Shown: positions 4,090 through 22,963 of the stretch, piece by piece | Numbering within the stretch: position 1 is the first letter of the stretch | Layout: every line of letters starts with the position of its first letter | Source of the DNA: Dyadobacter sediminis | Lineage (GTDB): Bacteria > Bacteroidota > Bacteroidia > Cytophagales > Spirosomataceae | Length of the DNA stretch: 64,000 nt | Reading direction: 5' to 3' | Assembly (NCBI RefSeq): GCF_005860765.1 | Contig: NZ_VCEI01000028.1 | Coordinates: forward strand, 372,001-436,000 | Translations under genes and position numbers: made by a program | Notes under the pieces: generated by a model | What the model saw: the letters and a program-made list of their open reading frames with translations, nothing else | Database searches by the model: none | Told to the model about the DNA's origin: nothing

Positions 4090-4935
4090 ATGAAATTCGG
4101 CATCAACACGTACCTGTTTTCTTCACCGTTCACAAACGAAAGCATTTCCTGTTTTCCACTTTTCAAAAAATGGGGCTTTGACTTTGTTGAAATTGCATTG
4201 GAAGATCCGGCAAACATTGATCCCGAACTTGTCAGAAAAGCGTTGGATGACAACGGACTGGAATGCCGTTCGGTATGTGCGGCAACCGGTAAGGGGCGCG
4301 ACCTGCGCGGCAACCGCAAGGAACAGATTACTTCTATGGAGTATATTCAGGAACTGATCAATATTGCGCCGGTTCTGGGCAGCAGCCTTGTTGCCGGACC
4401 TGTCTATTCAGCGGTCGGAAGGGCTGGTCTGGTTCCGGAAGAAAAGAAATCAAAACAATGGAATCTTGTCGTCAAAAACCTGAAATCACTTACTTCCTAT
4501 GCGGAAAAACAAAAGGTTAAGCTGGCCATTGAGCCGCTTAACCGTTATGAAACCGATTTTATCAACACCTGCGATCAGGCGATTCAATTAATAGAGGATG
4601 TCGGGAGCAATGCATTGTTTGTACATCTGGATTCCTTTCATATGAATCTGGAAGAAAAAGATCCGGCGCTGGCTATCAAAAAAGCGGGCGGAAAACTGGC
4701 TTTGCTGCATGCTTCGGGCAGCGACAGAGGAACGCCCGGCGGCGATCAGATCAACTGGGAACGGATTTTTGCAGCATTGGACAACATTAATTATCAGGGA
4801 GATATTGTCATTGAATCCTTTACGCCGGACGTCAAAATCATCGCAAAAGCAGCTTCCATCTGGCGTAAAATAGAACCTTCTAAGGAAGTCATTGCAATCG
4901 ATGGCCTGAACTTTCTTCGATCGCTTGCATTTTAA
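4090..4935 (+). CDS. Sugar phosphate isomerase/epimerase family TIM barrel (D-psicose/tagatose 3-epimerase type)
   Basis: The 281-residue product begins MKFGINTYLFSSPF and contains blocks typical of the xylose-isomerase-like TIM-barrel family. These include FDFVEIALEDP, the metal-ligand stretch LAIEPLNRYETDFINT, VHLDSFHMNLEE and VIESFTP; the Glu, Asp, His and Glu in them are the expected divalent-metal ligands. This pattern fits ketose 3-epimerases (D-psicose/D-tagatose type) better than endonuclease IV. It follows the FG-GAP gene at 44 bp and is probably cytoplasmic. The exact sugar is not determinable. Confidence 0.8.
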   Translation: MKFGINTYLFSSPFTNESISCFPLFKKWGFDFVEIALEDPANIDPELVRKALDDNGLECRSVCAATGKGRDLRGNRKEQITSMEYIQELINIAPVLGSSLVAGPVYSAVGRAGLVPEEKKSKQWNLVVKNLKSLTSYAEKQKVKLAIEPLNRYETDFINTCDQAIQLIEDVGSNALFVHLDSFHMNLEEKDPALAIKKAGGKLALLHASGSDRGTPGGDQINWERIFAALDNINYQGDIVIESFTPDVKIIAKAASIWRKIEPSKEVIAIDGLNFLRSLAF

Positions 4936-8225: not shown

Positions 8226-9752
8226 TCAGGCAGTGATTCCTTCTTCAAGCTGCGATGCGCTCAACTGCAAAACTTCAGTTGTTCTTGCGCGCGTTTTAGC
8301 CGCCAGATTTGCATCCTTGGCCAGCGATTTTCCAACAGACGGAATGATCTTTTTCAATTCTTCCTGCCATTCTTTGGATTTTGCCTCTTTAAAGCATTTG
8401 TTAATCAGTTCCAGCATAATGGAAACGGACGTAGAAGCACCCGGAGATGCGCCCAGCAGCGCAGCCAGAGAACCGTCCGCAGCCGTTACCATTTCGGTTC
8501 CAAATTCCAGTACACCGCCCACTTTCTTGTCTTTTTTGATTACCTGAACACGTTGTCCGGCCATTTCCAGATCCCAGTCTTCCAGTTTAGCTTCCGGCAA
8601 GTAATCTTTCAATGCCATCAGACGATCCTGCGGCGATTGTCTCACCTGATCAATCAGATACTTTGTCAACGGAATATTGTGAATTCCCGCAGCCAGCATC
8701 GGCCTGATGTTATTCAGCTTAATGGAAAGCGGAAGGTCGAGGAACGACCCGTTTTTCAGGAATTTGGTAGAAAAACCTGCATAAGGCCCGAACAGCAATG
8801 CTTTTTTGCCTTCGATCATACGTGTATCCAGGTGCGGTACCGACATAGGAGGAGAGCCGACAGAAGCTTTTCCATATACTTTTGCCTGATGTTTTTCAAT
8901 GATCTCGGGTTTATTGCAAACGAGCCACTGGCCGCTTACCGGAAATCCGCCGAATCCTTTACCTTCCGGAATACCTGATTTTTCAAGCAATGGAAGAGAG
9001 CCGCCGCCAGCACCAATGAATACGAACTTGGTTTTGACTTTAGTCTCTTTTCTCGTAGTGCGGTCTTTTACCTCGATAATCCACGAACCGTCTTTATGAC
9101 GATCAAAATCGTCCACTTCATGATTCAGGTAAAGATTGACACCTTCCTGTTTTTCAAGATGATCAAACATGAATTTGGTAAGTGTTCCGAAATTCACATC
9201 CGTTCCCAGTTCCATTCGGGTTGCTGCCACTTTCTCATTCGGATCTCTTCCTTCCATCACAACCGGAATCCAGTTGCTTATTTCCTTGCTATCTTCACTG
9301 AATTCCATTTCCCGGAACAAATGATGCTTTGTAAGTGCTTCATAGCGTTTTCTCAGGTATTCCACATTTTCTTCACCCCAGACAAAGCTCATGTGCGGAA
9401 TGTTATGGATAAAAGCATCCGGAGATTCAATCACCCCGGTTTCAACAAGAAAAGACCAGAATTCTTTGGAGACTTCGAAAGACTCGGCAATTTTAATGGC
9501 CTTCTTTGTTTCAATAGAGCCGTCTTCAAGTTGCGGCGTGTAGTTCAGTTCGCAGAAGGCAGAGTGTCCGGTTCCGGCATTGTTCCAGGGATCCGAACTT
9601 TCGGCAGTAACACGGTCAAGACGTTCGAAAATGGATATTGTGATAGATGGGTTTAATTTTTTAAGCAAAACTCCAAGAGTTGCACTCATGATACCGGCCC
9701 CAATCAAAACAACATCAGGGGAGATCGTTTTTGAAGATTTTTTGGTAACCAT
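8226..9752 (-). CDS. mqo: Malate:quinone oxidoreductase
   Basis: The 508-residue length is usual for this FAD-dependent, membrane-associated enzyme that oxidises L-malate and reduces quinone in the TCA cycle. The N-terminus carries the FAD-binding loop (VVLIGAGIMSATLGVLL). Family blocks follow: SSDPWNNAGTGHSAFCELNYTP, GGGSLPLLEKSGIPEGKGFGGFPVSGQWL, and a C-terminal ADGSLAALLGASPGAST. It is monocistronic, with its own terminator downstream. The ATG at 9752 puts the Rossmann loop at the usual distance from the N-terminus. Confidence 0.95.
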   Translation of the reverse strand: MVTKKSSKTISPDVVLIGAGIMSATLGVLLKKLNPSITISIFERLDRVTAESSDPWNNAGTGHSAFCELNYTPQLEDGSIETKKAIKIAESFEVSKEFWSFLVETGVIESPDAFIHNIPHMSFVWGEENVEYLRKRYEALTKHHLFREMEFSEDSKEISNWIPVVMEGRDPNEKVAATRMELGTDVNFGTLTKFMFDHLEKQEGVNLYLNHEVDDFDRHKDGSWIIEVKDRTTRKETKVKTKFVFIGAGGGSLPLLEKSGIPEGKGFGGFPVSGQWLVCNKPEIIEKHQAKVYGKASVGSPPMSVPHLDTRMIEGKKALLFGPYAGFSTKFLKNGSFLDLPLSIKLNNIRPMLAAGIHNIPLTKYLIDQVRQSPQDRLMALKDYLPEAKLEDWDLEMAGQRVQVIKKDKKVGGVLEFGTEMVTAADGSLAALLGASPGASTSVSIMLELINKCFKEAKSKEWQEELKKIIPSVGKSLAKDANLAAKTRARTTEVLQLSASQLEEGITA

Positions 9753-10084
9753 CAGGAAAAAAGTAGATATGTTAAAAGGGCGTTAGCCCGGAAAAGTACA
9801 AAATACTATCTGGTAACAATTTAAACAGCACAATTTGTTTCGAAAATAGTATAATTCTTAAAAATAAAGTCAAGCCAAGCGGCAAGTTCTTTTTTAGTCC
9901 CAATTAAAACTTTTTTAGGTGCTATTGATTTAAATCTTTTCTTACCAAATGGACAAAGAAAAAGGTTACTGTTTTTACAGTAACCTTGAATTAAGTTAAC
10001 AGATACTATAAAATGAATCTTACGATTATCATTTACAGCATATCTGTATAGCTACAAAATAGTAAATTTCTGATTTATAATTTA
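9753..10084. other. Intergenic region between mqo and the collagen-like lipoprotein gene
   Basis: About 330 AT-rich bases without a convincing ORF. It should hold the mqo promoter, but no perfect TAnnTTTG was found, and it contains the hairpin terminator at 9962-9987. Confidence 0.5.
9962..9987 (-). terminator. Terminator downstream of the collagen-like lipoprotein gene
   Basis: A perfect 10-bp stem (AAGGTTACTG / CAGTAACCTT, 6-nt loop) is followed on the minus strand by TTTCTTTG. It lies about 100 nt after the stop at 10085. Confidence 0.65.
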
Positions 10085-10633
10085 TTACTCTTTCAATCCA
10101 AGAGCAGCCATTGTTTCTTTGTAATTCGTCCAATCTACATTGGCATTCGTACGAAGACTCTCGGAAGGAATGATGACAGCTTTTATTCCTTCGAACTGAC
10201 GTTCCGGTGCTGTTTGCTGCTCTGTTTCCGACCAGCTTACCGGACGTATGTCAACATAAAAGTTTGATCCGCGCAAAAGCGTTACAAAGTTGAAATTTGT
10301 GAACTTGCCTTCTCCAAATTCCACTTTGCCCGGTTGTGCCCACCATAGTCCCTGGCTTTTTATAAAGACAACGACTACACTTTTGGAGATCATTACAGAA
10401 TCTTCAGAAGACAAGTTTGCTTTACCAAGTGTGTATCCGCCTTTTGTACTTTGTACGGCACCCGTAACAATTTCTTTTGCCATTATGCCGTCTTTCCCAT
10501 TTGCGCCGGCTGCACCTGTTTCTCCCTTAGGTCCCTGAGCACCTGCCGGTCCGACATCACCTTTTGGGCCGTCACATCCTATTCCTACACCAACAATTGC
10601 TATCCATGCAATAATCGTTAATTTTTTAATCAT
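10085..10633 (-). CDS. Lipoprotein with a short collagen-like Gly-X-Y segment
   Basis: The ATG at 10633 gives MIKKLTIIAWIAIVGVGIGC, a textbook lipoprotein signal with lipidated Cys20; an in-frame start at 10690 would bury this signal. Directly after the Cys come about nine Gly-X-Y triplets (GPKGDVGPAGAQGPKGETGA...GKDG, residues 22-49), then a ~130-residue globular part with no recognised domain. By analogy with other bacterial collagen-like lipoproteins, the triplets could form a short trimeric stalk on the envelope. The gene is isolated between intergenic regions. Confidence 0.75.
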   Translation of the reverse strand: MIKKLTIIAWIAIVGVGIGCDGPKGDVGPAGAQGPKGETGAAGANGKDGIMAKEIVTGAVQSTKGGYTLGKANLSSEDSVMISKSVVVVFIKSQGLWWAQPGKVEFGEGKFTNFNFVTLLRGSNFYVDIRPVSWSETEQQTAPERQFEGIKAVIIPSESLRTNANVDWTNYKETMAALGLKE

Positions 10634-11022
10634 AGTAGTACAAGTTTTAGTTAAAAGGTAAAATGGGAATTTGTGAGTAATGGATTCCAAGACAAATTAA
10701 GTAGTTATTGTTTCAATTACCTAGGAAATTTGGCCAGGTTTAACTTTGCATATGCAACAAATGATCAAGATAGAACAATATGATTCATATTGTTTAACTA
10801 AATTTGAATGTTGTAAGTCAGCTATTGCCCAGTTGTGTCTCAAGGCAATATTTTAGCACAATACTAAAAATGAGTAATGTTTTATAAGCTAAAATGTGTC
10901 AGGCTACGTTAGATATCGTAGTTTTAATTTTAATATGTAAGTAGTACAGATATTGGCTAACTGCAAAAATCCAGCTTTATCAATCAATTTAATAAAGAAT
11001 ACACTATATCAAAAACAGTTTT
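10634..11022. other. AT-rich intergenic region upstream of the C25 protease genes
   Basis: Roughly 390 bases between divergent genes, with no plausible ORF. A plus-strand -7-like TAACTTTG occurs at 10741-10748, but no matching -33 element sits at the right distance. It marks the left edge of the AT-richer segment. Confidence 0.45.
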
Positions 11023-14007
11023 ATGAAGACAAAAAACTTTACTAGGTTAATTTTTCTTTTAGCAGTCTGTATTCAGGTACAAATAACTGTTGGACATGCA
11101 CAAACGCCATGGAGTGGAAAGTATGGGAACGAATGGCTTGCGGGAAAGTATGGCCAATCGTGGTTGCGTATCGGTGTTTCCAAGAATGGCATTTACAAGG
11201 TTGCGTTACCAGTCGCTTTCCAGAATAAGCCTAATTTACTGCATTTATATCGTCGAGGTGTTGAAGTTGCACTGGTAAGTGCAACCAATACAGAAATAGA
11301 ATTTTACGGTGTGCCCAATGATGGAGCCTCGGATGCTTTGTTGTATCGTTTGCCTACAAGCAGAAAAAATACCAACTTCAGCATTTACTCGGATGAAAGT
11401 GCATACTTTCTGACATTTGATTCTACACCTCGAACAGCAACAGTACAGGTTTCTCTTGTTCCTGATCAGGCAGTAACTCCACAGCAATTTCATTATGCTA
11501 CCTATTTCAAAGAGTTTACAATTGAAAACTCTCATATGACTACTTATCCGAGTCGTCCTGCAACCCTTAACAGTTATTTTGAAGAAGGAAAAGCAGGAAC
11601 CGGAACAAGGATAGCAAATAATTCTGCGGACATTAAAACCTCCAATCCGAAACCTGTTATTTTTTCAAACTCGTATGTAGCCGAACCATTTATTTATCAG
11701 CTTAAATCAAGGTTTGGATCTGCTGTACCGAAAGTTAACGTTCGTCTGAAAGGTCGTGGCTTTCTGTTTAGCGCTACCTCAAATGTTGGCGTATATGCCG
11801 GCAAAGACAACACTCCGGCTTCTTTGAGACTAACCGGATCTACAGCAGTTACCGGATTCCTTGATCAGGACTATAATTTTGAATTACAGGAAACAGACAT
11901 AGAAAACGGACAGGGTACACTTGGTTTCAAATCAACCGGTGGTGCTTCGGACGGGTTTTCTGTTTCTTACTATTCTGTAACGTATGAGCAGAAAATTGAT
12001 ATGCAGGGAGGAAATTCTTATGAATTCAACTTTCCGGCTTCCAATTCCAATACAAGATTTACCATACTGAATACACCATCTGGAAATCTCAGGTTTCTGG
12101 ACGTTACCGACGCAGATCATCCAAGGATTATTAATGGAAATGCTTCTGATCTGATGGTTTCACGAAACGGGGGTGTGATGAAACTGCTGGCTTCAAATGA
12201 AAGTACAACAGTTACTCCTTCCTCGGTAACCTTCCAGCAAATAAACCCGGCTGATTTTGATTATCTCATTGTGACGAACGAAACGTTATCATCAGGAGCT
12301 CAAACGTATGCCGATTATCGTAAAAATGGATCGCCAGGTAAAAAGTATAAACCAATTGTCAAGAAAATTACGGACGTCTACAACCAGTTTAATTATGGCG
12401 AGCCAAGTGCCGTTGCAATTAGAAGGTTTGTTGATTTTATGATTTCCGATGAGAATAAAGACAAGTATCTGCTGCTTTTAGGAAAATCAATAACGTACTA
12501 TGAAAGAAGTACCCGGGAAGTTCCCGATGAAGTTCCGACTGTCGGATTTCCTGCTTCTGATTTGTTGCTTGTTGACGGACTTGGCGGTACGCCTGATGAT
12601 GTTCCTTCTATTCCTTATGGAAGGATTTCTGCTATAACCAATCAGCAATTAATTGACTATTTAAATAAGGTAAAGACTTATGAAAGCCAGACCGATGTTT
12701 CATGGAGGAAAAACGTACTGCATCTAAGCGGAGGTAAAGGAAACCTGCAGGTTCAGGAATTTGCCAAAAATTTGTCCGACATTGCTTCTGCATCGAACCT
12801 TTCGAATGCGCCTTATTATGGTAAAGTTATTGCTGTGCCGAAAGCTCTTGATTTAGCAACCAATGCAATTCAGGAAATTTCAATAGCACCTTATGTAAAT
12901 GGAACGATTGATCCGTCTATAACTGGGATTGGAATGGTTACTTATTTCGGACACGGAGGTGTTGATGTAACCGATCTTAATTTTGGGTATGCTACTGATC
13001 CGGCAAAAGGCTATGCAAATACCAGTAAATATCCGATTTTGTTCTATAATGGCTGTGGTGTAAATAACGTGTTCAGTAACCGTTTTAAGTTATTTTCAGA
13101 AGCACCCGGAAGTCCGTCGTTCAGGCGGCCGATGTCTCTGGACTGGTTGCTGGCTGCTGACAAAGGAGCAATAGCTGTATTTGGTAATGACTGGGATGCC
13201 TATGCTACTACTTCCAATGAATATTTGGATAAGCTTTATCTGGAAATTTTCCCAAAATCAGATTTGGAAAGAAGATCGATCGGAGGAATTATTCAGGATG
13301 TTGCCTTGAAAACAAAGCTTGAAAAAGGATATTCATACGATCCGATTACAAACGGCAGAGTAGCGTCCTACTATGATTACGACAGAGCAAATATTCATCA
13401 AATTATTTTACAGGGAGATCCGGCTCTTCGCATTTTGGTAACCGACGGGCCCCTTCCGGTTGAGCTGATTTCTTTTGATGCAACATTGGCAGAAAAGAAT
13501 AAAGTGGATGTAACCTGGAAAACGGCCTGGGAAAAAGACAACAGCCATTTTGTAGTGGAAAGAAGTTACAATGCCAAAAATTTTGAAGAAATTGGATTTG
13601 CAGAAGGTAAAGGAGATTCCAATACGGAAAGCACTTATCTGTTTAGTGATACAAATCCTCTTGCCGGTACAAGTTATTACCGTTTAAAGCAAATTGATAA
13701 GGCAGCAGTATCCGGAGACAAAACTTCGGCGGAAAAAATCAGTTACTCCAAAATTGTTTCCATCAACAGGCCTGAGACAAGTATGCTGGTTATTTCACCT
13801 AATCCTGCAACGGATCTGGTCGAAATTGTTCTTGATGCTCCGGTTAAAATAAAAAACTGGGACATACTGAATCAGCAAGGAAAAGTATTTAAAAGGGCGG
13901 GAACAGGAAATAAAGTAAATCTTGCCAATTTCCCAGCCGGAGAGTACATTATTAAAATCCTTACTGAAAATGAAGATATTTATTTTAAGAAAATTGTGAA
14001 AATGTAA
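11023..14007 (+). CDS. Gingipain-like C25 cysteine peptidase with type IX sorting domain (paralogue 1)
   Basis: The 994-residue product has a signal peptide, then a ~350-residue N-terminal beta-rich region. The Peptidase C25 domain runs from about residue 410 to 800. The likely catalytic His644 is in YFGHGG and Cys678 in NGCGV, 34 residues apart, close to the spacing in gingipains. The C-terminus (from about ISPNPATDLVEIV to YFKKIVKM) is a type A type IX sorting domain. It is probably a secreted or cell-surface protease. It is not PorU: it carries a cargo-type sorting domain and has a tandem paralogue. A hairpin separates it from the next gene. Confidence 0.85.
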   Translation: MKTKNFTRLIFLLAVCIQVQITVGHAQTPWSGKYGNEWLAGKYGQSWLRIGVSKNGIYKVALPVAFQNKPNLLHLYRRGVEVALVSATNTEIEFYGVPNDGASDALLYRLPTSRKNTNFSIYSDESAYFLTFDSTPRTATVQVSLVPDQAVTPQQFHYATYFKEFTIENSHMTTYPSRPATLNSYFEEGKAGTGTRIANNSADIKTSNPKPVIFSNSYVAEPFIYQLKSRFGSAVPKVNVRLKGRGFLFSATSNVGVYAGKDNTPASLRLTGSTAVTGFLDQDYNFELQETDIENGQGTLGFKSTGGASDGFSVSYYSVTYEQKIDMQGGNSYEFNFPASNSNTRFTILNTPSGNLRFLDVTDADHPRIINGNASDLMVSRNGGVMKLLASNESTTVTPSSVTFQQINPADFDYLIVTNETLSSGAQTYADYRKNGSPGKKYKPIVKKITDVYNQFNYGEPSAVAIRRFVDFMISDENKDKYLLLLGKSITYYERSTREVPDEVPTVGFPASDLLLVDGLGGTPDDVPSIPYGRISAITNQQLIDYLNKVKTYESQTDVSWRKNVLHLSGGKGNLQVQEFAKNLSDIASASNLSNAPYYGKVIAVPKALDLATNAIQEISIAPYVNGTIDPSITGIGMVTYFGHGGVDVTDLNFGYATDPAKGYANTSKYPILFYNGCGVNNVFSNRFKLFSEAPGSPSFRRPMSLDWLLAADKGAIAVFGNDWDAYATTSNEYLDKLYLEIFPKSDLERRSIGGIIQDVALKTKLEKGYSYDPITNGRVASYYDYDRANIHQIILQGDPALRILVTDGPLPVELISFDATLAEKNKVDVTWKTAWEKDNSHFVVERSYNAKNFEEIGFAEGKGDSNTESTYLFSDTNPLAGTSYYRLKQIDKAAVSGDKTSAEKISYSKIVSINRPETSMLVISPNPATDLVEIVLDAPVKIKNWDILNQQGKVFKRAGTGNKVNLANFPAGEYIIKILTENEDIYFKKIVKM

Positions 14008-14011
14008 TAGA

Positions 14012-14051
14012 AAAGCACGGACAAACGTTCTAGCAACAATGTCCGTGCTTT
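14012..14051 (+). terminator. Hairpin between the two C25 protease genes
   Basis: A perfect 12-bp stem (AAAGCACGGACA / TGTCCGTGCTTT) with a 16-nt loop starts 5 nt after the first C25 stop and ends 27 nt before the second gene. The T tail is weak, so it may attenuate rather than stop transcription. Confidence 0.55.
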
Positions 14052-14078
14052 CATTATTTCATACTAAATACACACGAT

Positions 14079-17000
14079 TTGAAAACTTTTCTATCTTCCA
14101 TTCTACTCTTTTTTTTATTCTCAGTTAATCAATTGTTTGCGCAGGAAAGCGCTTCTTTTGCAAACAGCTGGATTTCCTATGGCAAACCTTATGTGAAAAT
14201 CGGCATTACTGCCAAAGGAATATATAAGGTACCATTTGCTTCTCTTCCGGCAGGTTTTTCAACCGTCCAACCATCTAATCTACAACTCTGGCATCGTGGA
14301 AAACAGGTTGCAATCCTGAGTACTGATAACAATGAAATTCTCTTTTTTGGTGTACCAAATGACGGATCAAGCGATTCCGTATTTTACCAGCCAACAAGCT
14401 CCCGATTGAATCCGTATTTCAGCATGTATTCCGATGAAAGTTCTTACTTTCTGACAAATGGAGAAACAGCAGGATTACGGGCGGAAGTCATTAACAAACC
14501 GGCAGATACGAGTATTCCTGTACAAACTTATTTCAGAAAAACCAATCTGAATGTATTCAAGGATGTATACTCGATGACAACAGAAGATCCGAATGCTCCT
14601 AATTTACGAAACAGCTTTTTTGAATTTTCTGCGAGCAAAACAGGACCTGCCATTATTGATGGTAAAACAGCAGCTTACCCTTTTGAACTTTCAGGTATAA
14701 AAAAAAACGAATTAGAGAAAGCTACGGTTAAGTTGCTTTTACATGGAAGAAGCAGTAATTCCCGAAGTATTGAGATTTCAGTTGGAAAAAATGAACAATC
14801 ATTAAGGCTTGTGAAATCTCTTTCCAGCGCAGGTTTTGGTGCAACAGAATACACCTTTGAACTTGAAGAAGGCGACACAGACGAGAATGGAAAGGGCATA
14901 TTTACATTTAAGTCGGGAAGTACGGAAGATAAACTAAAAAGATTTTCACTTACCTATTTTCGTATTTCTTATCCGGCATCCACGGCAATTCAGGGAAAAA
15001 CCAGCTACTTTGACCTGCCTGCTGTCTCGGAGCCTTTTAGCCGTATTTCCTTGTCCGGCAATTTTGCAAATGCAAAGTTCCTTGACATTACAGATCCCGA
15101 CAAGCCCAGGATTATCATGGGTAAAGCAGATAATCTAGTAATTTCAAGAACATCCGGCAAGATGGCCAATATGTTGGTTACTGATGAAACAAGCATTGTA
15201 AATCCAGCCAAAATCAGTAATGTACAATTTAACAAACAAGATGTAAATTCCATTAATTACATTATTGTTTCCAGTGAAAATCTACTGCAAGGAGCAAACA
15301 GTTATGCAGCTTACCGTTCATCTGTTAACGGAGGAAGCTTCAAAACGGCTGTTGTAAATATTAAAGATATTTACAATCAATTTAACTATGGAGAACCGAG
15401 CCCTGTTGCCATTCGTAATTTTGTAAATTTTGCACTGTCGTCGGGATTAAAAGACAAGTATCTTTTACTCCTAGGAAAGTCGGTTACACACAATGAAAGA
15501 ATGGTAAGAGAATTGCCGGATGAAGTTCCGACAGTAGGCTATCCGGCTTCTGATATATTGCTTGTGGAAGGACTTGCCGGAGCACCCAAGAACGTTCAGG
15601 CCATTCCTGTTGGAAGAGTATCAGCAATAACTAATCAAAATGTTCTGGATTACCTTCAAAAGGTTAAAGATTATGAATCAAATATTTCCGGAGAATATGG
15701 ATGGCGCAAAGAAGTGCTTCATTTGAATGGCGGTAAATCAACCGAAGAAATAACGCAGTTGAAAAATGAACTGGCATCTCTCGAACCTTTTGTTATTAAC
15801 GGGAGTATTGGCGGCAAAGTAACACCATTTGCCAAGCAGCAGGCAATGGCTGAGGTCGAATCAGTAAATATAACGTCTCAGGTAAATGAAGGTGTAGGAC
15901 TGATTACTTACTTTGGGCATGGATCAACGATACGTACAGACTTGAATATGGGGTATATTACGGATGGCGACCGCGGATATAACAATGCCGGTAAATATCC
16001 GATGATGTACTTCAATGGTTGCGGAGTAGGAAATATTTTCAGTGCGCGCTTCAATCCAAATCCGAACGCTTCTGACCGTTATGCTTTATCGCTCGACTGG
16101 CTACTTGCAAAGAACAGGGGCTCTGTAGCAATTGTTGCAAACTCCTTTGAAAGCTTTGTCAGCCCGTCAGCCAAATATCTGCAGGTTCTTTATGAGAAAA
16201 TGTTTTCAGATCCGGCAACTGTTAACTTGTCAATAGGTAAGATTTTGACAGCCGTAGCAAATCAGGTACTTACGTCAGATAATGGTGTATACGCTATTGC
16301 CAATATTCATCAATCCATACTTCAGGGTGATCCGGCATTAAAGCTCATAACAGTAAGCAAGCCTGATTATTCTCTTGATGTTAACAATAGCATAAAGATA
16401 TATTCAAAATCTCCTGATAAAACCATTGGATCTTCTGATACATTAAAACTACAGATTGGCATTTTTAATCAGGGAAGGTTTTTGAAGGATGATAAATTAC
16501 CTGTTAAAATAACTTTTCACTTTAAGGAGGGAACCAGTTCTCAAATAGAAACCATTGCAGCTTTTCCTTATCAGAGTACATTGGATATTGTATTTCCAAA
16601 CAAAAATCAAAATATTCAGAGGGTGGAAGTACAATTGGATCCGGACAACATACTGGATGAGTTGAATGAAAAGAATAATCTGGCAGAGCTGGAAATTAAC
16701 TGGGAAATAGCAGAGAACGAAATGCTGTATCCAGTTGAAACCATCAAGGACATTATTCCTCCATTGCTTAATGTCAAGGTAAATAACAGAATGATCAGAA
16801 ATGAGGAGGTGTTACTGCAAAACCCACTATTAAATATTACAGTGAATGATGATCGTCTGATTGTCGGGGATACGGCTTTGGTAGATATTTTTATCAAACC
16901 TTGCTGGAATGGGAACTGCGAGTTTGAACCGGTAAATTACACTGCTGGCAAATATGATATTCAATCCCTAACTGCTCGTTCTTTTCAAATTAACTACTAT

Positions 17001-17396
17001 TTTGATAACCTTGTAATAGGAAAGTATGAACTGTTGATCAATGTTCGGGATCAGTCAGGAAATTCATCCTTGCAACCTTACAGAATACGTTTTGAGATTA
17101 GTGAAGAGGTATCACAATGGAGTGTTACAAGCAGTCCTAATCCATCTTCATCGTACATTCGGTTTGAAGCTAAAACAGTTGATTTTGAACAGATTGAATC
17201 TCTGGAGTACTCGGTTTATAATCTGAAAGGAATCAAGGTTGGGGAAAAAATTATTGATAAAGTGCAAGCAGATGTGAATGAATGGTATTGGCAGCCTGAC
17301 AATCAACCTTCTGGTTTATACATTTATAAAGTTACCAGAAAAGGAAAGGACTCAACAAGTAAGCAGCTGACCGGAAGAATTCTGATTGTTAAATAA
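14079..17396 (+). CDS. Gingipain-like C25 cysteine peptidase with type IX sorting domain (paralogue 2)
   Basis: This 1105-residue paralogue of the preceding gene shares segments such as DIYNQFNYGEPSPVAIRNF and KDKYLLLLGKS. The start is a TTG at 14079, needed to keep the signal peptide (MKTFLSSILLFFLFSVNQLF-AQ); no in-frame ATG precedes it closely. Likely catalytic residues are His614 (YFGHGS) and Cys648 (NGCGVG). After the protease domain it has ~250 extra residues with a CARDB-like beta-sandwich (LDPDNILDELNEKNN) and an Ig-like stretch, then a type IX sorting domain (SSPNPSSSYIRF to GRILIVK). Expected to be exported to the surface or medium. Confidence 0.85.
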   Translation: MKTFLSSILLFFLFSVNQLFAQESASFANSWISYGKPYVKIGITAKGIYKVPFASLPAGFSTVQPSNLQLWHRGKQVAILSTDNNEILFFGVPNDGSSDSVFYQPTSSRLNPYFSMYSDESSYFLTNGETAGLRAEVINKPADTSIPVQTYFRKTNLNVFKDVYSMTTEDPNAPNLRNSFFEFSASKTGPAIIDGKTAAYPFELSGIKKNELEKATVKLLLHGRSSNSRSIEISVGKNEQSLRLVKSLSSAGFGATEYTFELEEGDTDENGKGIFTFKSGSTEDKLKRFSLTYFRISYPASTAIQGKTSYFDLPAVSEPFSRISLSGNFANAKFLDITDPDKPRIIMGKADNLVISRTSGKMANMLVTDETSIVNPAKISNVQFNKQDVNSINYIIVSSENLLQGANSYAAYRSSVNGGSFKTAVVNIKDIYNQFNYGEPSPVAIRNFVNFALSSGLKDKYLLLLGKSVTHNERMVRELPDEVPTVGYPASDILLVEGLAGAPKNVQAIPVGRVSAITNQNVLDYLQKVKDYESNISGEYGWRKEVLHLNGGKSTEEITQLKNELASLEPFVINGSIGGKVTPFAKQQAMAEVESVNITSQVNEGVGLITYFGHGSTIRTDLNMGYITDGDRGYNNAGKYPMMYFNGCGVGNIFSARFNPNPNASDRYALSLDWLLAKNRGSVAIVANSFESFVSPSAKYLQVLYEKMFSDPATVNLSIGKILTAVANQVLTSDNGVYAIANIHQSILQGDPALKLITVSKPDYSLDVNNSIKIYSKSPDKTIGSSDTLKLQIGIFNQGRFLKDDKLPVKITFHFKEGTSSQIETIAAFPYQSTLDIVFPNKNQNIQRVEVQLDPDNILDELNEKNNLAELEINWEIAENEMLYPVETIKDIIPPLLNVKVNNRMIRNEEVLLQNPLLNITVNDDRLIVGDTALVDIFIKPCWNGNCEFEPVNYTAGKYDIQSLTARSFQINYYFDNLVIGKYELLINVRDQSGNSSLQPYRIRFEISEEVSQWSVTSSPNPSSSYIRFEAKTVDFEQIESLEYSVYNLKGIKVGEKIIDKVQADVNEWYWQPDNQPSGLYIYKVTRKGKDSTSKQLTGRILIVK

Positions 17397-17419: not shown

Positions 17420-19357
17420 CTAAGATAGTTTTTTCTCATTAAACCATTCCAGCCAAAGCGCAAGTGATATGGTTCTGGTAATATGGAACCATGGCCTGAC
17501 TTTATGCGTATAGGGAATTCGGTTGTTTTCAAGAACTGTGGTTTGCTCATTAAACTTTTTCCTATCTACATATTCCCAAACCAGCTTTGTATCATTCAGG
17601 AATTCTTCGGCTTGTTTGTAAAGCCGGAGCGTAATTTCCTGTCCATGCGATGATGCTAATGTAGCTTTGCTGCTGCGGCCAAGTACCTCATCGGATAACA
17701 GCCCTTTCATTGCTTCCCGAAAGTGTTCACGGCCTTTACCGTTTCCGTATTTAATGACATTCGGTACCGCCATGCATACTTCAAACAAGTCTTTATCAAG
17801 AAAAGGAGATCTGTTGCTTATTCCGTAATGTTCACCAAGTACAAACTGTTGCTCTATTGCTGTAACTGCTCTTGGCGTAAATACATCTTCAAACAACGGT
17901 TGAAAATGCTCCGGCAAATTGCTGCGTAAAGATGTAGGTAAAACAGGCTCCACAGATGCAAGAATTGGTCTTTGCAAATATTCATCTTTTAAAATGGAAA
18001 TTGGAGCATTAACTGCCTGATGCCGTAAGCGATTGATGAAATTACCTAATCCGCGCTTTAAAAAGTAAGTATTGGATATTCTCAATGTGCTATGTATTTC
18101 CCTGTACACTTTCACGAGATCTTTCAAGGATAAATTTCTTGCATCTGAGATACGGTTATAAAGAAAATTCTGAAGAACAAGATTATACTTTTGTTCAAAG
18201 GAGTATGAATTCCAATTTGGATATTGTTCAGTTAAGGAAAAATAGGGTACCCTTTTGCGTAAAAGGTTTTCAAAGTCATGCCATTTTTTTTCCTTGAAAG
18301 TTTCTCCTAATACTTCCATTCCACTTCCAATAACAGAATCGCCGCCACTTCCACGTAAAAGGATATTACAATCAAGATATTTGGCAAAAGGCATCATGGT
18401 TGTAATCAATGAAGGAGAAAGTGTGGATACTTCCGGTTCACCGTATAATGCAGTATGTGTTTTGATCAAATCAAAATCTTCCTTTGATTGGTATACTTCA
18501 TGGTGTATGGATCCTATTTTGTTTACAACGCTTTCAGAATAATAACTTTCATCCATTTCCTTGCTTGCACTTTTGTGATATAAAGTGTGCAAGGTGCGGG
18601 ATGGAAAAATATGTTTAAACATTGTACTCACCGAAGAGGAGTCAAGTCCGCCACTCAAATGAGAAGCAACATTCAACGACTCATTTAAAGCAGATGATCG
18701 TACAGAATCTTTAAAAATGTTGTAAACAGCTTCGCCATAATCTTTTAATGATGATAAATGAGACCATTTCTCAGGATTAAAGGTTACGTAAGGCTCCGTA
18801 ACAACTTTGTTTTCATACACTGTTACTATATGACCTGGGAGAACGGATTTTATCTGATCATAAAACGAATCATAGGAGTGCTTTGTCGTAAGATCCATCC
18901 TGAAACGGTGGTACGATGTAATTGCACTATCATTAATGTTTAGATATGGCTGAACTTCTTTATTTGAAACAAGCGAAGCAAGGCTTGTTGAAAAAGCAAA
19001 AAACTTTTTTGGAATGTGCAGGTAAAATAAGGGAATAGTGCCGAACAACTCACGAGCCAACAATATTTGGTTGTTGACTTCATCATAACAAATAGCTATC
19101 CTTAATTTGTTATCACAATTTTTTAAGATTTTACGGCAAAAATCAAAAGAGAGTATTTCATCATGTAAAAAATTACTTAATGAAGTACTCTCTTTATTGT
19201 TAATATCGAAACTTGCTACAAGAAATTTATTGAAGGGATCGTGGTCTAAATGATGAGTACCGATTAGACCATGATTAAATTCAATTGCTTTTTCAAAAAA
19301 AGGCTTGTTATTATTAGAAGTTACAAATTGATAATTTATAAAGCCTTCAATCAGCAA
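17420..19357 (-). CDS. Asparagine-synthetase-like lasso-peptide macrocyclase (C protein candidate)
   Basis: The 645-residue product has the two-domain plan of class B asparagine synthetases. The N-terminal glutaminase-like domain (LLARELFGTIPLFYLHIPKKFFAFSTSL, residues 99-126) lacks the catalytic Cys2 (N-terminus MLIEGF), so it cannot release ammonia from glutamine. The synthetase domain keeps the ATP-pyrophosphatase loop SGGLDSSS (235-242) and a second motif GSGGDSVIGSG (336-346). Loss of Cys2 with a retained PP-loop is typical of lasso cyclases, which adenylate an Asp/Glu side chain of the core and join it to the core N-terminus. The start is TTG at 19357 (no ATG lies between the upstream stop and conserved sequence), 34 bp after a lasso-type precursor gene. 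No B1/B2 gene is adjacent. A non-lasso amide ligase is the alternative. Confidence 0.8.
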   Translation of the reverse strand: MLIEGFINYQFVTSNNNKPFFEKAIEFNHGLIGTHHLDHDPFNKFLVASFDINNKESTSLSNFLHDEILSFDFCRKILKNCDNKLRIAICYDEVNNQILLARELFGTIPLFYLHIPKKFFAFSTSLASLVSNKEVQPYLNINDSAITSYHRFRMDLTTKHSYDSFYDQIKSVLPGHIVTVYENKVVTEPYVTFNPEKWSHLSSLKDYGEAVYNIFKDSVRSSALNESLNVASHLSGGLDSSSVSTMFKHIFPSRTLHTLYHKSASKEMDESYYSESVVNKIGSIHHEVYQSKEDFDLIKTHTALYGEPEVSTLSPSLITTMMPFAKYLDCNILLRGSGGDSVIGSGMEVLGETFKEKKWHDFENLLRKRVPYFSLTEQYPNWNSYSFEQKYNLVLQNFLYNRISDARNLSLKDLVKVYREIHSTLRISNTYFLKRGLGNFINRLRHQAVNAPISILKDEYLQRPILASVEPVLPTSLRSNLPEHFQPLFEDVFTPRAVTAIEQQFVLGEHYGISNRSPFLDKDLFEVCMAVPNVIKYGNGKGREHFREAMKGLLSDEVLGRSSKATLASSHGQEITLRLYKQAEEFLNDTKLVWEYVDRKKFNEQTTVLENNRIPYTHKVRPWFHITRTISLALWLEWFNEKKLS

Positions 19358-19391: not shown

Positions 19392-19544
19392 TTAACCTTC
19401 AGAAGAAAAGTCATCAGGAGGAGTAAGGTCAGGAAGACTTCCCAACTTTCCTTTTGTCAGCTTACTAACATTCCCGTGCTTTTTCAGAATTGGCTTGCGG
19501 TAAGCCTTTTTGGTCTGTGTAGAGTGCGAAGTCACTGTTCTCAT
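19392..19544 (-). CDS. Putative lasso-peptide precursor (A peptide)
   Basis: This 50-residue ORF is easily missed because of its size. Residues 15-32 read YRKPILKKHGNVSKLTKG, an exact match to the RRE-recognised lasso leader signature YxxPxLxxxGxxxxLTxG. Thr30 occupies the conserved -2 position, so the predicted leader is residues 1-31. The core would be residues 32-50, GKLGSLPDLTPPDDFSSEG. Core Gly1 and Asp8 would close an 8-residue macrolactam; no other Asp/Glu lies at core positions 7-9. The 11-residue tail is Pro- and acid-rich with Phe15 as a possible steric plug. It is followed after 34 bp by the cyclase-like gene and preceded by a promoter at 19586-19616. Product type and ring size are inferences. 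Confidence 0.8.
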   Translation of the reverse strand: MRTVTSHSTQTKKAYRKPILKKHGNVSKLTKGKLGSLPDLTPPDDFSSEG

Positions 19545-19669: not shown

Positions 19670-20395
19670 CTACTTACTTCCGTACTCGATTATCTTTCTG
19701 ATTTTATGCGACCCTGACTCAATCTTGCCTGATCCGATGCAGTTTTCATTCTGACAAAGTTCCAGGGCTGTCTGATCATCCGAGATTAATCCTACTCCGA
19801 GTGCATATTGCTTTACGCCGATATATTTGTTGATTATCGATGTATCTCTACGCTCTTCTACTGTCACCGTTTTATCAAAAGACTGTGCATCGATGCTCGC
19901 AGGCTGACCGATATGCTGATAATGATAATTTTCTTCGTCCAGGTCATTATAGCTGTTGCCATTCCATTCCAGGTTTGCGTCCACCGGAAACGCCATGGAA
20001 AAATACATCCGGCTATCCATGTTGGTCAGGATCTTGTCGGGATATTTCTGTACCGTAAATTCCTTCACCTTTTGCCAGTAATCTGCTGAGGTGTTCCGGG
20101 TAGAACGGGAGAAGGTGTAAGTCGAAACGCCTTCATTGGTTTCCACTCTGATCACTTCATCTTTTTCCTGCCATGCTTTTACCACCGGATCTTTCTGGCT
20201 TGTGGAATACACTTCTTCCTGAACCTGATAAATGGAGTACCTTCCTGCTTCCAACGGAAAATAGTTGTAGTCACTGACTGGTTCCGTCGTCTTTGTATCG
20301 CATGAAAAAACTGCAACCATGATCAGAAGCAGAAACGGGTTACTCAAACCGGCTTTTTTGGGCAACCAACTGTTAATGTGTGTATGGATCTTCAT
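19670..20395 (-). CDS. Hypothetical lipoprotein
   Basis: The 241-residue product has a hydrophobic segment ending in a lipobox (LLLIMVAVFSC), so it is probably lipidated at about Cys32. No domain is recognised in the mature part. It lies 37 bp downstream of uridine kinase on the same strand and ends 126 bp before the lasso-type precursor start, with a separate promoter in between. It is therefore more likely linked to the kinase transcript than to the peptide operon. An immunity or export role for the peptide cannot be argued from sequence. Confidence 0.7.
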   Translation of the reverse strand: MKIHTHINSWLPKKAGLSNPFLLLIMVAVFSCDTKTTEPVSDYNYFPLEAGRYSIYQVQEEVYSTSQKDPVVKAWQEKDEVIRVETNEGVSTYTFSRSTRNTSADYWQKVKEFTVQKYPDKILTNMDSRMYFSMAFPVDANLEWNGNSYNDLDEENYHYQHIGQPASIDAQSFDKTVTVEERRDTSIINKYIGVKQYALGVGLISDDQTALELCQNENCIGSGKIESGSHKIRKIIEYGSK

Positions 20396-20432: not shown

Positions 20433-21080
20433 CTAGTCCAAAACCTTTCGTTCTTCCAGTTTTCCTTTGAGAAAACCGATTAACACCTGAAGGCCTGTAT
20501 CAAAACGAGAATTGTTGTTGATAATTACGTCTGCTTCGGAACGCAGCGGCAGAATAAATTTGTCATAAGTCGGTGCAACATGATGTTCCCACCGGTACAA
20601 AACATCATTCAGGTCATAACCGCGCTCATTGTTGTCACGAATAATTCTTCTTTTTATTTTCACATGCTCCTTGGCGTCCACAAAAATTTTCAGATCAATC
20701 AGTCTGGAAATTTCCGGAAAATAAAATACAAAAATCCCTTCTACAATAATAATCGGTCTTGGTTCAAAAACCAGAATTTCGGGCTGAATGAGCGGATTAT
20801 TGAAAGTGTACTCCTTCTGATGGACTTCTCTGCCGGCGCGGAGCACAGCGATATGTTCCGCAAACAAATGATGATCAATCGTTTCAGGCAAATCAAAATT
20901 TTCAACGCCGTTTTCATCTTTCGGTATTTCATGAATCGGACGGTAATAATTGTCCTGCGAAATGCGTGTGATTTCATCTTTGCCAAAAGCATCGATCAGG
21001 CTTTTCATGAAAAAGGTCTTACCGGACGCGCTGCCGCCGGTAATTCCGATGATATAAGGTAGTTTTTCGGGGGTTATCAT
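20433..21080 (-). CDS. udk: Uridine kinase
   Basis: The 215-residue product has a Walker A loop near the N-terminus (GITGGSASGKTFF). Uridine kinase blocks follow: ISQDNYYRP, NFDLPETIDHHLF, the Walker-B-like IIIVEGIFVFYFPEI, and the lid RRIIRDNNERGYDLNDVLYRWEHHVAPTYDKFI. It phosphorylates uridine and cytidine with a nucleoside triphosphate in pyrimidine salvage, in the cytoplasm. Length fits the family. It lies 53 bp downstream of the PorZ-like gene and 37 bp upstream of a lipoprotein gene, so co-transcription is plausible. Confidence 0.92.
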   Translation of the reverse strand: MITPEKLPYIIGITGGSASGKTFFMKSLIDAFGKDEITRISQDNYYRPIHEIPKDENGVENFDLPETIDHHLFAEHIAVLRAGREVHQKEYTFNNPLIQPEILVFEPRPIIIVEGIFVFYFPEISRLIDLKIFVDAKEHVKIKRRIIRDNNERGYDLNDVLYRWEHHVAPTYDKFILPLRSEADVIINNNSRFDTGLQVLIGFLKGKLEERKVLD

Positions 21081-21133: not shown

Positions 21134-22963
21134 TTATTCAATAACGGCGAGTTTTCCGGCAAATTTTTCATTTCCATCATTTGTAACAACGAAAACCATA
21201 TAAATTCCTCCTCTGGCCCGTCGTCCGGTGTAATCATTCAGATTCCACGATGCCGTTCCGCCCTGAGATGCCGTTTCGTAAATCAGCCGGCCGGAAAGTT
21301 CGGTAATTTTAACAATGGATTTATCCAGAAGCCCTTTTATTCCAACCAATCCTGCAAAACCCGGCCTGACAGGATTCGGGAAAATGGTTACAGCAGAAAG
21401 ATTTTCCGCTGAAGCAGATGCGTTGCTCCGATAAGAAACCATGCCGTTGGGCGTATCTATAAAAACCATTCCGTTTTCAGCATCAAACCGCAATGCATGG
21501 ATGTAATCCGACGGAAGAGGAGAGTCCGTTGCTGTAAATTGCCGGATCAATTCCATGCCGTCCGCACTGAAAAGGAATAATCCGTTTGCAGTTCCGATCC
21601 ACTTTCTGTTTCCGGGTTCAACAGCTATGGCGGTACATTTTTCATTGGCAAAAAGCCTGCGCTGGCCATAAACCGGCAATATGGCATCTGTGCGGCCGGC
21701 ATTCAGAATATCATCTGTAATAAAATAGCCTACTCCTTTATCACTTGCAAACCAAACGTAGCCGTCCTGATCCAGCGCAAGACTGTGGATGGAAGATGAC
21801 GGCAAACTTCCATTGCCGATGGAAACGGAAAGTACGCGCTGTTTATTTTTTTCTTTATTCTCAACCAGAATGCCACCGCCAAGATAATCCGGAAGCCGTG
21901 CCCAGCTAAGTCCGTTCCGGTCAATGACAACAGAATCTGGACGCGGCGAAATGGTGGTGTCTTTTTGCTCCGGAACAAAAGATGTAAAATCCGGACCCGA
22001 GTTACGGATCAGGCCGTTTTTATAATCTGCAATCCATAATGTTCCATCAGCAGTTTGCAATGCTTCGGCCGGTGATTTGATTGAAGTGTTGTTCGTGATT
22101 GTTGCACTGTTGTTTTCATCAATCGTAACAATTTTATCGTCCAGTGCGACAATCAGGGACTTTTCATGCTTTGATATCGAGTAACGTTTGCTTTGGGAAG
22201 AATAAACGTTCTGCCATGCTCCGCCGGCTCTTTCATAAATTCCTTTTCCGGAAAATCCTGCATAAAGTTTATTGTTGTACTGACATACAGCCACCGCATT
22301 AGCCGGCGTTCCGACCGGTTTCCAGTTGGCAAAATACTGACGGTTAACATCAGGCTGCATGGATGCAGCAAGGATTCCGTTTGAAGTGACTGCATAAATG
22401 GAATCACTGGAAAAGGCAATGTTACTGACAGCTACTTCCGAGCCGTTTAAGCCAATGTAGCGATATGTTTCTTCAACCTGACGCAGCCTGGTATCCAGTA
22501 CCAGAATTCCGAATCTTGTGGATAAATAAGCAAGTTCCTGATGAAAAGTAACCTGTTTTATTTCTTTATTGTCGGGAAGCCCGGCGGCATTCTGAAGAAC
22601 AGGCCATGGAATTATTTCTTTTGGTTCCGCATTTTGATCTATATAAACAAGATCAATAAAGCCGCTGCGGTAAGCAACCAGTAACAGGCTGTCTTCAGAA
22701 TCGTAAGCCATGCTGCTGACTCCGCTTTCGCTTAACCCGTCCAGTTTGGACCATATTCTGATTTTCTTATCCGAAAGGTTTACGCTGAAAAGGCCGTTGT
22801 AAGTGGAACAGAAAATGTGGTCGTTAGCCTGAACAACTTGCTTTGCTGAAAGATAACTGAAATGCGTTTCCCATGATCCGAGCGGCACATGCTGCGCTTT
22901 GATATGGCCATTTACAGTCATAAATAGAAAAGCAAGCACCACAAACCGTCCCATTTTCATCAT
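21134..22963 (-). CDS. porZ: PorZ-like type IX secretion protein (beta-propeller with C-terminal sorting domain)
   Basis: The 609-residue product has a signal peptide (MVVLAF-like, cleaved near NGHIKAQ). The family-typical start of the mature protein is GSWETHFSYLSAKQVVQANDHIFCSTYNGLFSV. Repeated propeller units of two-component-regulator type follow (GLSESGVSSMAYDSEDSLLLVAYRSGFIDLVYID; SSIHSLALDQDGYVWFASDKGVGYF). The C-terminus (ITIFPNPVRPGFAGLVGIKGL... GRRARGGIYMVFV) is the sorting domain characteristic of PorZ. PorZ works at the cell surface with PorU in attaching anionic lipopolysaccharide to type IX cargo. It is shorter than the Porphyromonas protein. Fits the many sorting-domain proteins nearby. 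Confidence 0.75.
   Translation of the reverse strand: MMKMGRFVVLAFLFMTVNGHIKAQHVPLGSWETHFSYLSAKQVVQANDHIFCSTYNGLFSVNLSDKKIRIWSKLDGLSESGVSSMAYDSEDSLLLVAYRSGFIDLVYIDQNAEPKEIIPWPVLQNAAGLPDNKEIKQVTFHQELAYLSTRFGILVLDTRLRQVEETYRYIGLNGSEVAVSNIAFSSDSIYAVTSNGILAASMQPDVNRQYFANWKPVGTPANAVAVCQYNNKLYAGFSGKGIYERAGGAWQNVYSSQSKRYSISKHEKSLIVALDDKIVTIDENNSATITNNTSIKSPAEALQTADGTLWIADYKNGLIRNSGPDFTSFVPEQKDTTISPRPDSVVIDRNGLSWARLPDYLGGGILVENKEKNKQRVLSVSIGNGSLPSSSIHSLALDQDGYVWFASDKGVGYFITDDILNAGRTDAILPVYGQRRLFANEKCTAIAVEPGNRKWIGTANGLFLFSADGMELIRQFTATDSPLPSDYIHALRFDAENGMVFIDTPNGMVSYRSNASASAENLSAVTIFPNPVRPGFAGLVGIKGLLDKSIVKITELSGRLIYETASQGGTASWNLNDYTGRRARGGIYMVFVVTNDGNEKFAGKLAVIE

Follow-up and report, generated by a model that had tools for sequence, protein, structure and literature searches.

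The window, by which we mean the whole 64,000-nucleotide stretch of Dyadobacter sediminis DNA analyzed here, contains a small minus-strand gene that very probably encodes a lasso peptide precursor, with its ring-closing enzyme alongside. The initial annotation had proposed a 50-codon ORF at 19392-19544, and its position, strand, and length were confirmed, with ATG as the start codon. The locus is laid out as follows, in window coordinates:

14079..17396, plus strand: PorU2-type C25 peptidase of the type IX secretion system (T9SS), convergent; NF052324 match of 865.6 bits; a marker of the locus, not counted as part of the system
17420..19357, minus strand: lasso cyclase (C), 645 aa, TTG start, asparagine-synthase domain with the ATP motif SGGLDSS, 34 bases downstream of the precursor
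19392..19544, minus strand: lasso precursor gene (A), 50 aa, ATG start; translation MRTVTSHSTQTKKAYRKPILKKHGNVSKLTKGKLGSLPDLTPPDDFSSEG
19452-19544, minus strand: precursor leader, 31 aa
19395-19451, minus strand: predicted core, GKLGSLPDLTPPDDFSSEG
19392-19394, minus strand: precursor stop codon
19587..19616, minus strand: promoter-like site TTTG-N19-TAAATTT, upstream of the precursor and recurring in the genus
19670..20395, minus strand: lipoprotein-like neighbor, 241 aa, matched beside the cyclase in 44 of 48 Dyadobacter loci
20433-21080: uridine-kinase-type protein, upstream of the precursor
21134-22963: PorZ, upstream of the precursor

This C25 peptidase has a tandem partner: both are PorU2-type T9SS enzymes, lying downstream and convergent at 11023-17396, near PorZ.

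The leader motif of the precursor (YRKPILKKHGNVSKLTKG / YRKPILKKHGNVSKLTK) contains the YxxPxL...LT signature with Thr at -2, and the core has Gly1 and Asp8, all as the initial annotation had stated. Its further contention that these features define a lasso precursor goes too far, because the class is defined by its enzymes and B1 and B2 are missing at the locus. Support for the lasso-precursor reading comes from a leader-model match, from the lasso-type cyclase directly after the gene, and from homologs in relatives. The leader model is the curated NCBIfam model NF033521 (lasso_leader_L3), which matches the precursor, as expected of a lasso leader, with 23.5 bits against a cutoff of 19. A search with such lasso-leader HMMs had been proposed as a check. 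Contrary to what had been supposed, the gene is within reach of annotation, since a curated model recognizes it.

From each of 48 Dyadobacter genomes (the genus sample), one main precursor-cyclase locus and one B locus were taken. A profile search yielded 55 precursor matches with all 48 genomes represented; the absence of small homologous ORFs beside cyclases in relatives had been named as grounds for giving up the reading, and they are present in every genome. By comparison of positions, 54 of the 55 matches adjoin a cyclase (two with a YcaO gene between) and one is solitary. One of the 55 is broken by a stop; in this genome (G012, stretch L029) the precursor is interrupted near its start, yet a cyclase ORF of 645 aa is present. 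The lasso_leader_L3 model at E<=0.01 matched 37 of 42 precursors scanned (out of 53 intact ones). Residues Y15, P18, L20, G24, and T30 are invariant across 42 aligned precursors, an invariance that is partly by construction, as these were gathered by a pattern fixing or nearly fixing those same positions. The independent evidence for the leader is the NF033521 match together with the profile search, which recovered the pattern-collected set plus two.

At 55 cyclase loci, 53 precursors are intact, and their cores comprise 47 different sequences. In 44 of these, core residue 8 or 9 is Asp or Glu, against about 33% expected from core composition, and Gly is the first residue in 36. By eye, a Gly-Ser occurs shortly ahead of an acidic residue in every distinct core, and the median core charge is -2. 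Lasso cores have an N-terminal residue lying 7-9 residues from an Asp or Glu, and the window core has Gly1 and Asp8. An 8-residue ring within a 19-mer core is thus predicted, and for the predicted product, GKLGSLPDLTPPDDFSSEG minus water, a monoisotopic mass of 1912.905 Da was computed, with [M+2H]2+ at 957.460; a phosphate would add 79.966. The window core ends in SSEG and lacks the C-terminal Ser that serves as acceptor in the paeninodin type; some of the 47 cores do end in Ser. Precursors of related genera, in stretches L109-L127, mostly read KLTLKxGSxxDGFG; if their Thr is also at -2, the core would start with Lys and have its acid at position 7, pointing to an unusual ring or to another cleavage site.

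Lasso precursors are accompanied by an asparagine-synthase-type macrolactam cyclase, and such an enzyme adjoins the window precursor, with PF00733 matched at 108.3 bits; its top NCBIfam model is the lasso cyclase model NF033535, at 185.8 bits and below the cutoff of 525. We count this low score against our main reading. Residues S235, G236, G237, D239, S240, and S241 are conserved in at least 47 of the 48 genus cyclases. The cyclase profile hit no lasso cyclase among solved structures, which we likewise count against the main reading; its matches there were asparagine synthetases, beta-lactam synthetase, CarA, and a hydroxyamidotransferase. The nearest named cyclase is that of Dyadobacter flavalbus NS28 (91% identical); if genome G001 belongs to that strain, its core is identical to the window's. 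A scan of genome contigs with the cyclase family profile (P0002) returned one locus only. The window genome has one cyclase of this type and one precursor of this family.

The promoter-like site resembles the -33/-7 promoter type of Bacteroidota. A TTG-N17-23-TAnnTTT site was found in 47 of 53 precursor upstream regions, whereas 200 shuffled sets averaged 4.5 and reached at most 11; the upstream regions are related rather than independent sequences. The C25 peptidase was matched beside the main cyclase in 47 of 48 genus loci. Outside the genus, the lipoprotein-like family lies within 10 kb of at least 41 of 79 cyclase hits, and it is also found in at least 35 genomes having no cyclase hit. Its structural model has a mean pLDDT of 80.6, with weak fold matches (TM about 0.42) to uncharacterized putative lipoproteins, and it may or may not belong to the system, for example as an immunity or receptor protein.

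No B1 or B2 was found beside the window precursor-cyclase pair, although lasso clusters have both, or a fused B. The window genome is a 6.2-Mb draft in 33 contigs, and PF13471 (B2) and PF05402 (B1) have two matches each in it, as close pairs on contigs C22 and C1. The first pair lies in the following set:

Window genome (G000), contig C22, positions 9302-12079 of stretch L006: B1-B2-kinase-NTase set, between BaiN/uvrC and GALM/FtsH

This set contains no cyclase and no precursor. Its B2 was recognized as a lasso B2 by NF033537 (80.5 bits, cutoff 33); no PDB match to it was found at E<=1, which counts against the main reading. The C22 B1 scored 66.7 bits with the lasso PqqD model, under the cutoff of 80, and matched the solved lasso RRE TbiB1 (5v1u) with an E value of 4.2e-10. 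The NTase matched PF14907 with 151 bits (cutoff 31.2). The kinase was recognized weakly, by PF07475 at 19 bits (cutoff 33.3) and TIGR04352 at 38.8 bits (cutoff 200), and retains its P-loop. The HPr-type kinase and NTase that accompany B1-B2 in paeninodin/Bsf-type systems are therefore found, at a distant locus and with a weak kinase match. At the level of the genome, B1 and B2 occur in the window genome and in 48 of 48 genus genomes.

The pair on contig C1 lies in a second lasso-type cluster (L007:7529-14126), which holds B1, B2, kinase-like and NTase-like genes, a cyclase, and an ATP-grasp protein (PF14397). A precursor candidate with a WxxP motif, picked by eye, is found there on the opposite strand at 12921-13043; no family model matched it.

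The separation seen in the window genome extends throughout the genus. PF13471 matches occur in 48 of 48 genomes (a single one in 47), as do PF05402 matches (a single one in 45). The B locus is colinear in all 48, in the order B1-B2-kinase-NTase-GALM-FtsH, with BaiN matched in 48 and uvrC in 47; the interval between BaiN and B1 is about 2.8 kb, with further genes, in 13 of 16 examined genomes and about 0.3 kb in the other three. No cyclase or precursor match was found in any of the 48 B-locus stretches. Conversely, matches to B1, B2, kinase, and NTase were absent from all 48 main precursor-cyclase loci; the flank covered was about 1.5 kb for 30 of these, and genome-wide searches place B2 elsewhere. 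The two loci lie on different contigs in 28 genomes and on the same contig in 20, where they are 0.56-4.8 Mb apart. In the single-contig genomes G005, G016, G033, G063, and G069 they are separated by 0.6-2.6 Mb, which, together with the other shared-contig genomes, rules out an assembly gap or artefact. Genus-wide synteny of the loci also speaks against a phage or plasmid origin as a recent mobile insert.

Within the genus, median pairwise identity falls from 73% (B1) through 61% (B2 and kinase alike) and 45% (NTase) to 32% (cyclase); the comparison genes give 94% (FtsH), 74% (BaiN), and 49% (lipoprotein). By these sequence comparisons the cyclase diverges faster than B1, B2, and the kinase, with the NTase intermediate. 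With species distance removed, cyclase distances had partial correlations of 0.14 with B1 and 0.25 with B2, and across the four B-locus genes the values were 0.07-0.28. Such weak values speak neither for nor against the pairing of the loci, and we dropped co-evolution as support for it.

In 200 genomes sampled from the family, of which 34 are Dyadobacter, B2 was matched in 106 and the cyclase profile (E<=1e-40) in 91. A cyclase and a B2 scoring over the Pfam cutoff occur together in 53 genomes outside the genus. For 28 of these, a B2 is no more than 20 kb from a cyclase; in the remaining 25 it is on the same contig at 0.17-6.3 Mb (10 genomes) or on another contig (15). These positions were compiled by hand, and some weak cyclase hits may be other amidotransferases. 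We read 20 stretches from 16 genomes of related genera, 12 of them from genomes with B2 near the cyclase. In 10 of the 12, PorU2, lipoprotein, cyclase, B1, and B2 stand together, the same kind of locus as that of the window pair. Every component, including kinase, NTase, and precursor, was matched in L116 and L128; in L110, L111, and L127 the NTase alone went unmatched, with an ORF of about 390 aa in its place; L112 has neither an NTase nor a precursor match; L109, L113, L114, and L117 have no kinase match; and L115 and L118 are located away from PorU2. Four split genomes of one related genus (g26) were read: in G206, G230, and G234 the cyclase is accompanied by B1, kinase, and NTase while B2 lies elsewhere, and in G202 both B1 and B2 are away from it.

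Midpoint-rooted trees were built from 37 B1, 37 B2, and 33 kinase sequences, with 20 of the 48 genus genomes included. In all three, Dyadobacter forms one group and the C1 set is far off. In the B1 and B2 trees the genus groups with the unlinked g26 copies and not with the clustered ones (support of 0.997 and 0.995, with 0.71 and 0.43 for the genus alone). A simple relocation of clustered B genes is for this reason unsupported, and the split may reflect the use of an already unlinked B1-B2.

We propose, at a probability of roughly 80%, that the precursor at 19392-19544 and the cyclase at 17420-19357 are matured in trans by the unlinked C22 B1-B2-kinase-NTase set, yielding a lasso peptide. The pairing of the C22 enzymes with the window precursor is inferred from uniqueness and synteny. 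In the established lasso pathway, as outlined in the pertinent sections of PMC10368454, PMC13381572, and PMC10885120, the YxxPxL leader is held by B1 and cut off by B2, for which Thr(-2) is a recognition element; the cyclase links the N-terminus so exposed to the acidic residue of the ring. Here, C22 B1 would bind the YxxPxL leader, and C22 B2 would cut after Lys31, one residue beyond the Thr. The cyclase would then activate Asp8 and join it to Gly1 around the C-terminal tail, giving the 19-mer of 1912.905 Da. More speculatively, the kinase might phosphorylate the conserved ring Ser; Ser5 is a candidate acceptor because BsfK, according to the part of PMC10368454 concerned with it, phosphorylates an internal core Ser (Ser3).

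Several other explanations of the locus have to be weighed. The frame at 19392-19544 is only 50 codons long and might resemble a lasso precursor by chance. For this we used 30 third-order Markov copies of the window as a control, considering ORFs of 30-100 aa: the strict leader pattern matched one of 512 such ORFs in the window and none of 24,246 in the copies, and the loose pattern matched once in the window versus 19 times in all 30 copies. On the strength of this control and of conservation in 48 of 48 genus genomes, we reject a chance ORF, the probability of which we consider negligible. Nor do we find it at all likely that the pair is a decaying remnant of a once complete cluster. B1 and B2 are missing from the locus, the precursor is broken in G012, and stops fall within the cyclase match in G024, G025, and G030, all of which such decay would explain; against it, the window cyclase is an intact 645-codon ORF with conserved active-site residues, and the promoter-like site is kept upstream of 47 of 53 precursors. 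Codon differences in the precursor also argue against decay: relative to G001, 8 are synonymous and 1 is non-synonymous, and for more distant relatives the counts are 20 and 11 (G006) or 18 and 11 (G011).

It is improbable that the window pair is independent of the distant set, with another protease freeing the core or the cyclase acting directly on the precursor, and with the C22 operon devoted to another kind of RiPP, for instance a linear phosphorylated peptide. The C22 operon does resemble the RRE-kinase-NTase sets that part of PMC13381572 describes for linear phosphorylated peptides, and, judging by the title of one paper, pseudomycoidin can be obtained without leader and leader peptidase. 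However, the C22 operon has a lasso B2, and no signal peptidase was seen there. Moreover, 43 of 48 genus genomes have a family precursor at the cyclase only, none of the 48 B regions has a precursor match, and the same kinds of genes stand in one stretch in related genera. The presence of a second B1-B2 pair, on C1, in the genome that carries the window precursor counts against the pairing with C22, and the C1 pair might serve the window precursor instead. We regard this as very unlikely: apart from the C1 B2, the genus search gave no second B2 (PF13471 matches once in 47 of 48 genomes), the C1 pair branches far from the genus B1/B2, and the precursor candidate picked by eye in its cluster carries a WxxP leader, WxxP versus YxxP dictating RRE binding specificity in the account given in part of PMC13381572. 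We thus retain maturation in trans by the C22 set as the main reading.

Compared with known systems, the window peptide is a new member of the lasso family. Dyadobacter shares with A-C-B1-B2 lasso clusters the YxxPxL leader with Thr(-2), the asparagine-synthase-type cyclase, the PqqD-like B1, and the transglutaminase-like B2. It differs from them in that A-C and B1-B2 are unlinked (by 0.56-4.8 Mb in the 20 of 48 genomes with both on one contig) and in that no exporter was noticed among the neighbors read at either locus. The phosphorylated lasso systems of paeninodin, pseudomycoidin, and Bsf likewise combine B1-B2 with an HPr-type kinase and a nucleotidyltransferase; in the portions of PMC10368454 and PMC8498205 that treat them, their genes are described as a single cluster, whereas the Dyadobacter genes are split, and paeninodin uses a C-terminal Ser, whereas the window core has none and carries a ring Ser at position 5. 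In unclustered lanthipeptide systems, as covered in part of PMC8960859, the leader protease is also encoded apart from the precursor and modifying enzyme, but these belong to another RiPP class. In Dyadobacter not just the protease but also the leader binder, kinase, and NTase are separated from precursor and cyclase, and in 48 of 48 genomes they occupy a syntenic site. Linear polyphosphorylated peptides, in the relevant part of PMC13381572, share an RRE, an HprK-like kinase, and an NTP transferase; they have no cyclase and a SipW-type signal peptidase, and C22 has a lasso B2 instead. Among the papers listed from open-licence full texts, we recognized no description of Dyadobacter lasso peptides or of unlinked lasso B1-B2, and only one paper, with a passing mention, was found for 'lasso peptide' with Dyadobacter or Spirosoma; prior mention elsewhere is possible. 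To our knowledge, a precursor-cyclase pair separated genus-wide from B1, B2, kinase, and NTase is an undescribed variant.

Some genomes hold more than one cassette. More than one precursor match was found in five genus genomes, with four in G026 and two each in G021, G028, G036, and G061. G026 has three P0002-type cyclases and one B2; around its fourth precursor, the 10 kb read contained no cyclase match. Solitary precursors also occur in the related genus g26, at two places in G107 and at one in G073. Lasso-type precursors of this kind lie at L168:4786-4941, L169:4762-4902, L170:4730-4873, and L171:5013-5162, again without a cyclase match across the 10 kb read; by eye, three of these four adjoin ORFs that appear secreted. 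In G028 (L053:956-4996) and G021 (L055:869-4911), a precursor, a YcaO protein (PF02624), and a lasso-type cyclase stand in a row, with cores ending in WDPC, possibly producing a lasso/azoline or thioamide hybrid; no B1 or B2 match was found beside these rows. G021 also has, on its contig C2 (L057:3596-10444), another asparagine-synthase-type gene with a GATase domain match, with a PqqD-like match and a kinase-like gene nearby and no PF13471 match near it; a small minus-strand ORF with a WxxP motif at 4768-4917, seen by eye, may be the precursor there.

As one B set coexists with several cassettes in G026 and with solitary precursors, we tentatively suggest a broader arrangement, to which we give somewhat less than even odds. 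One B1-B2-kinase-NTase set at a fixed core-genome site would serve, in trans, fast-changing precursor-cyclase cassettes and even solitary precursors, and the product would be a core-genome phosphorylated lasso peptide having a physiological or signalling role rather than that of an accessory antibiotic. If one B1-B2 set does accept several precursor-cyclase pairs, it would be a useful natural tool for producing many lasso peptides.

Searches demanding precursor, cyclase, B1, and B2 in one neighborhood would see two incomplete fragments here, and the pathway could be missed or discarded. Lasso peptides are usually discussed as accessory antibiotics. A lasso system in 48 of 48 genomes of a genus is unusual for such compounds and raises a testable question about its cellular role; occurrence in the core genome and the acidic nature of the peptide suggest a physiological role more than an antibiotic one.
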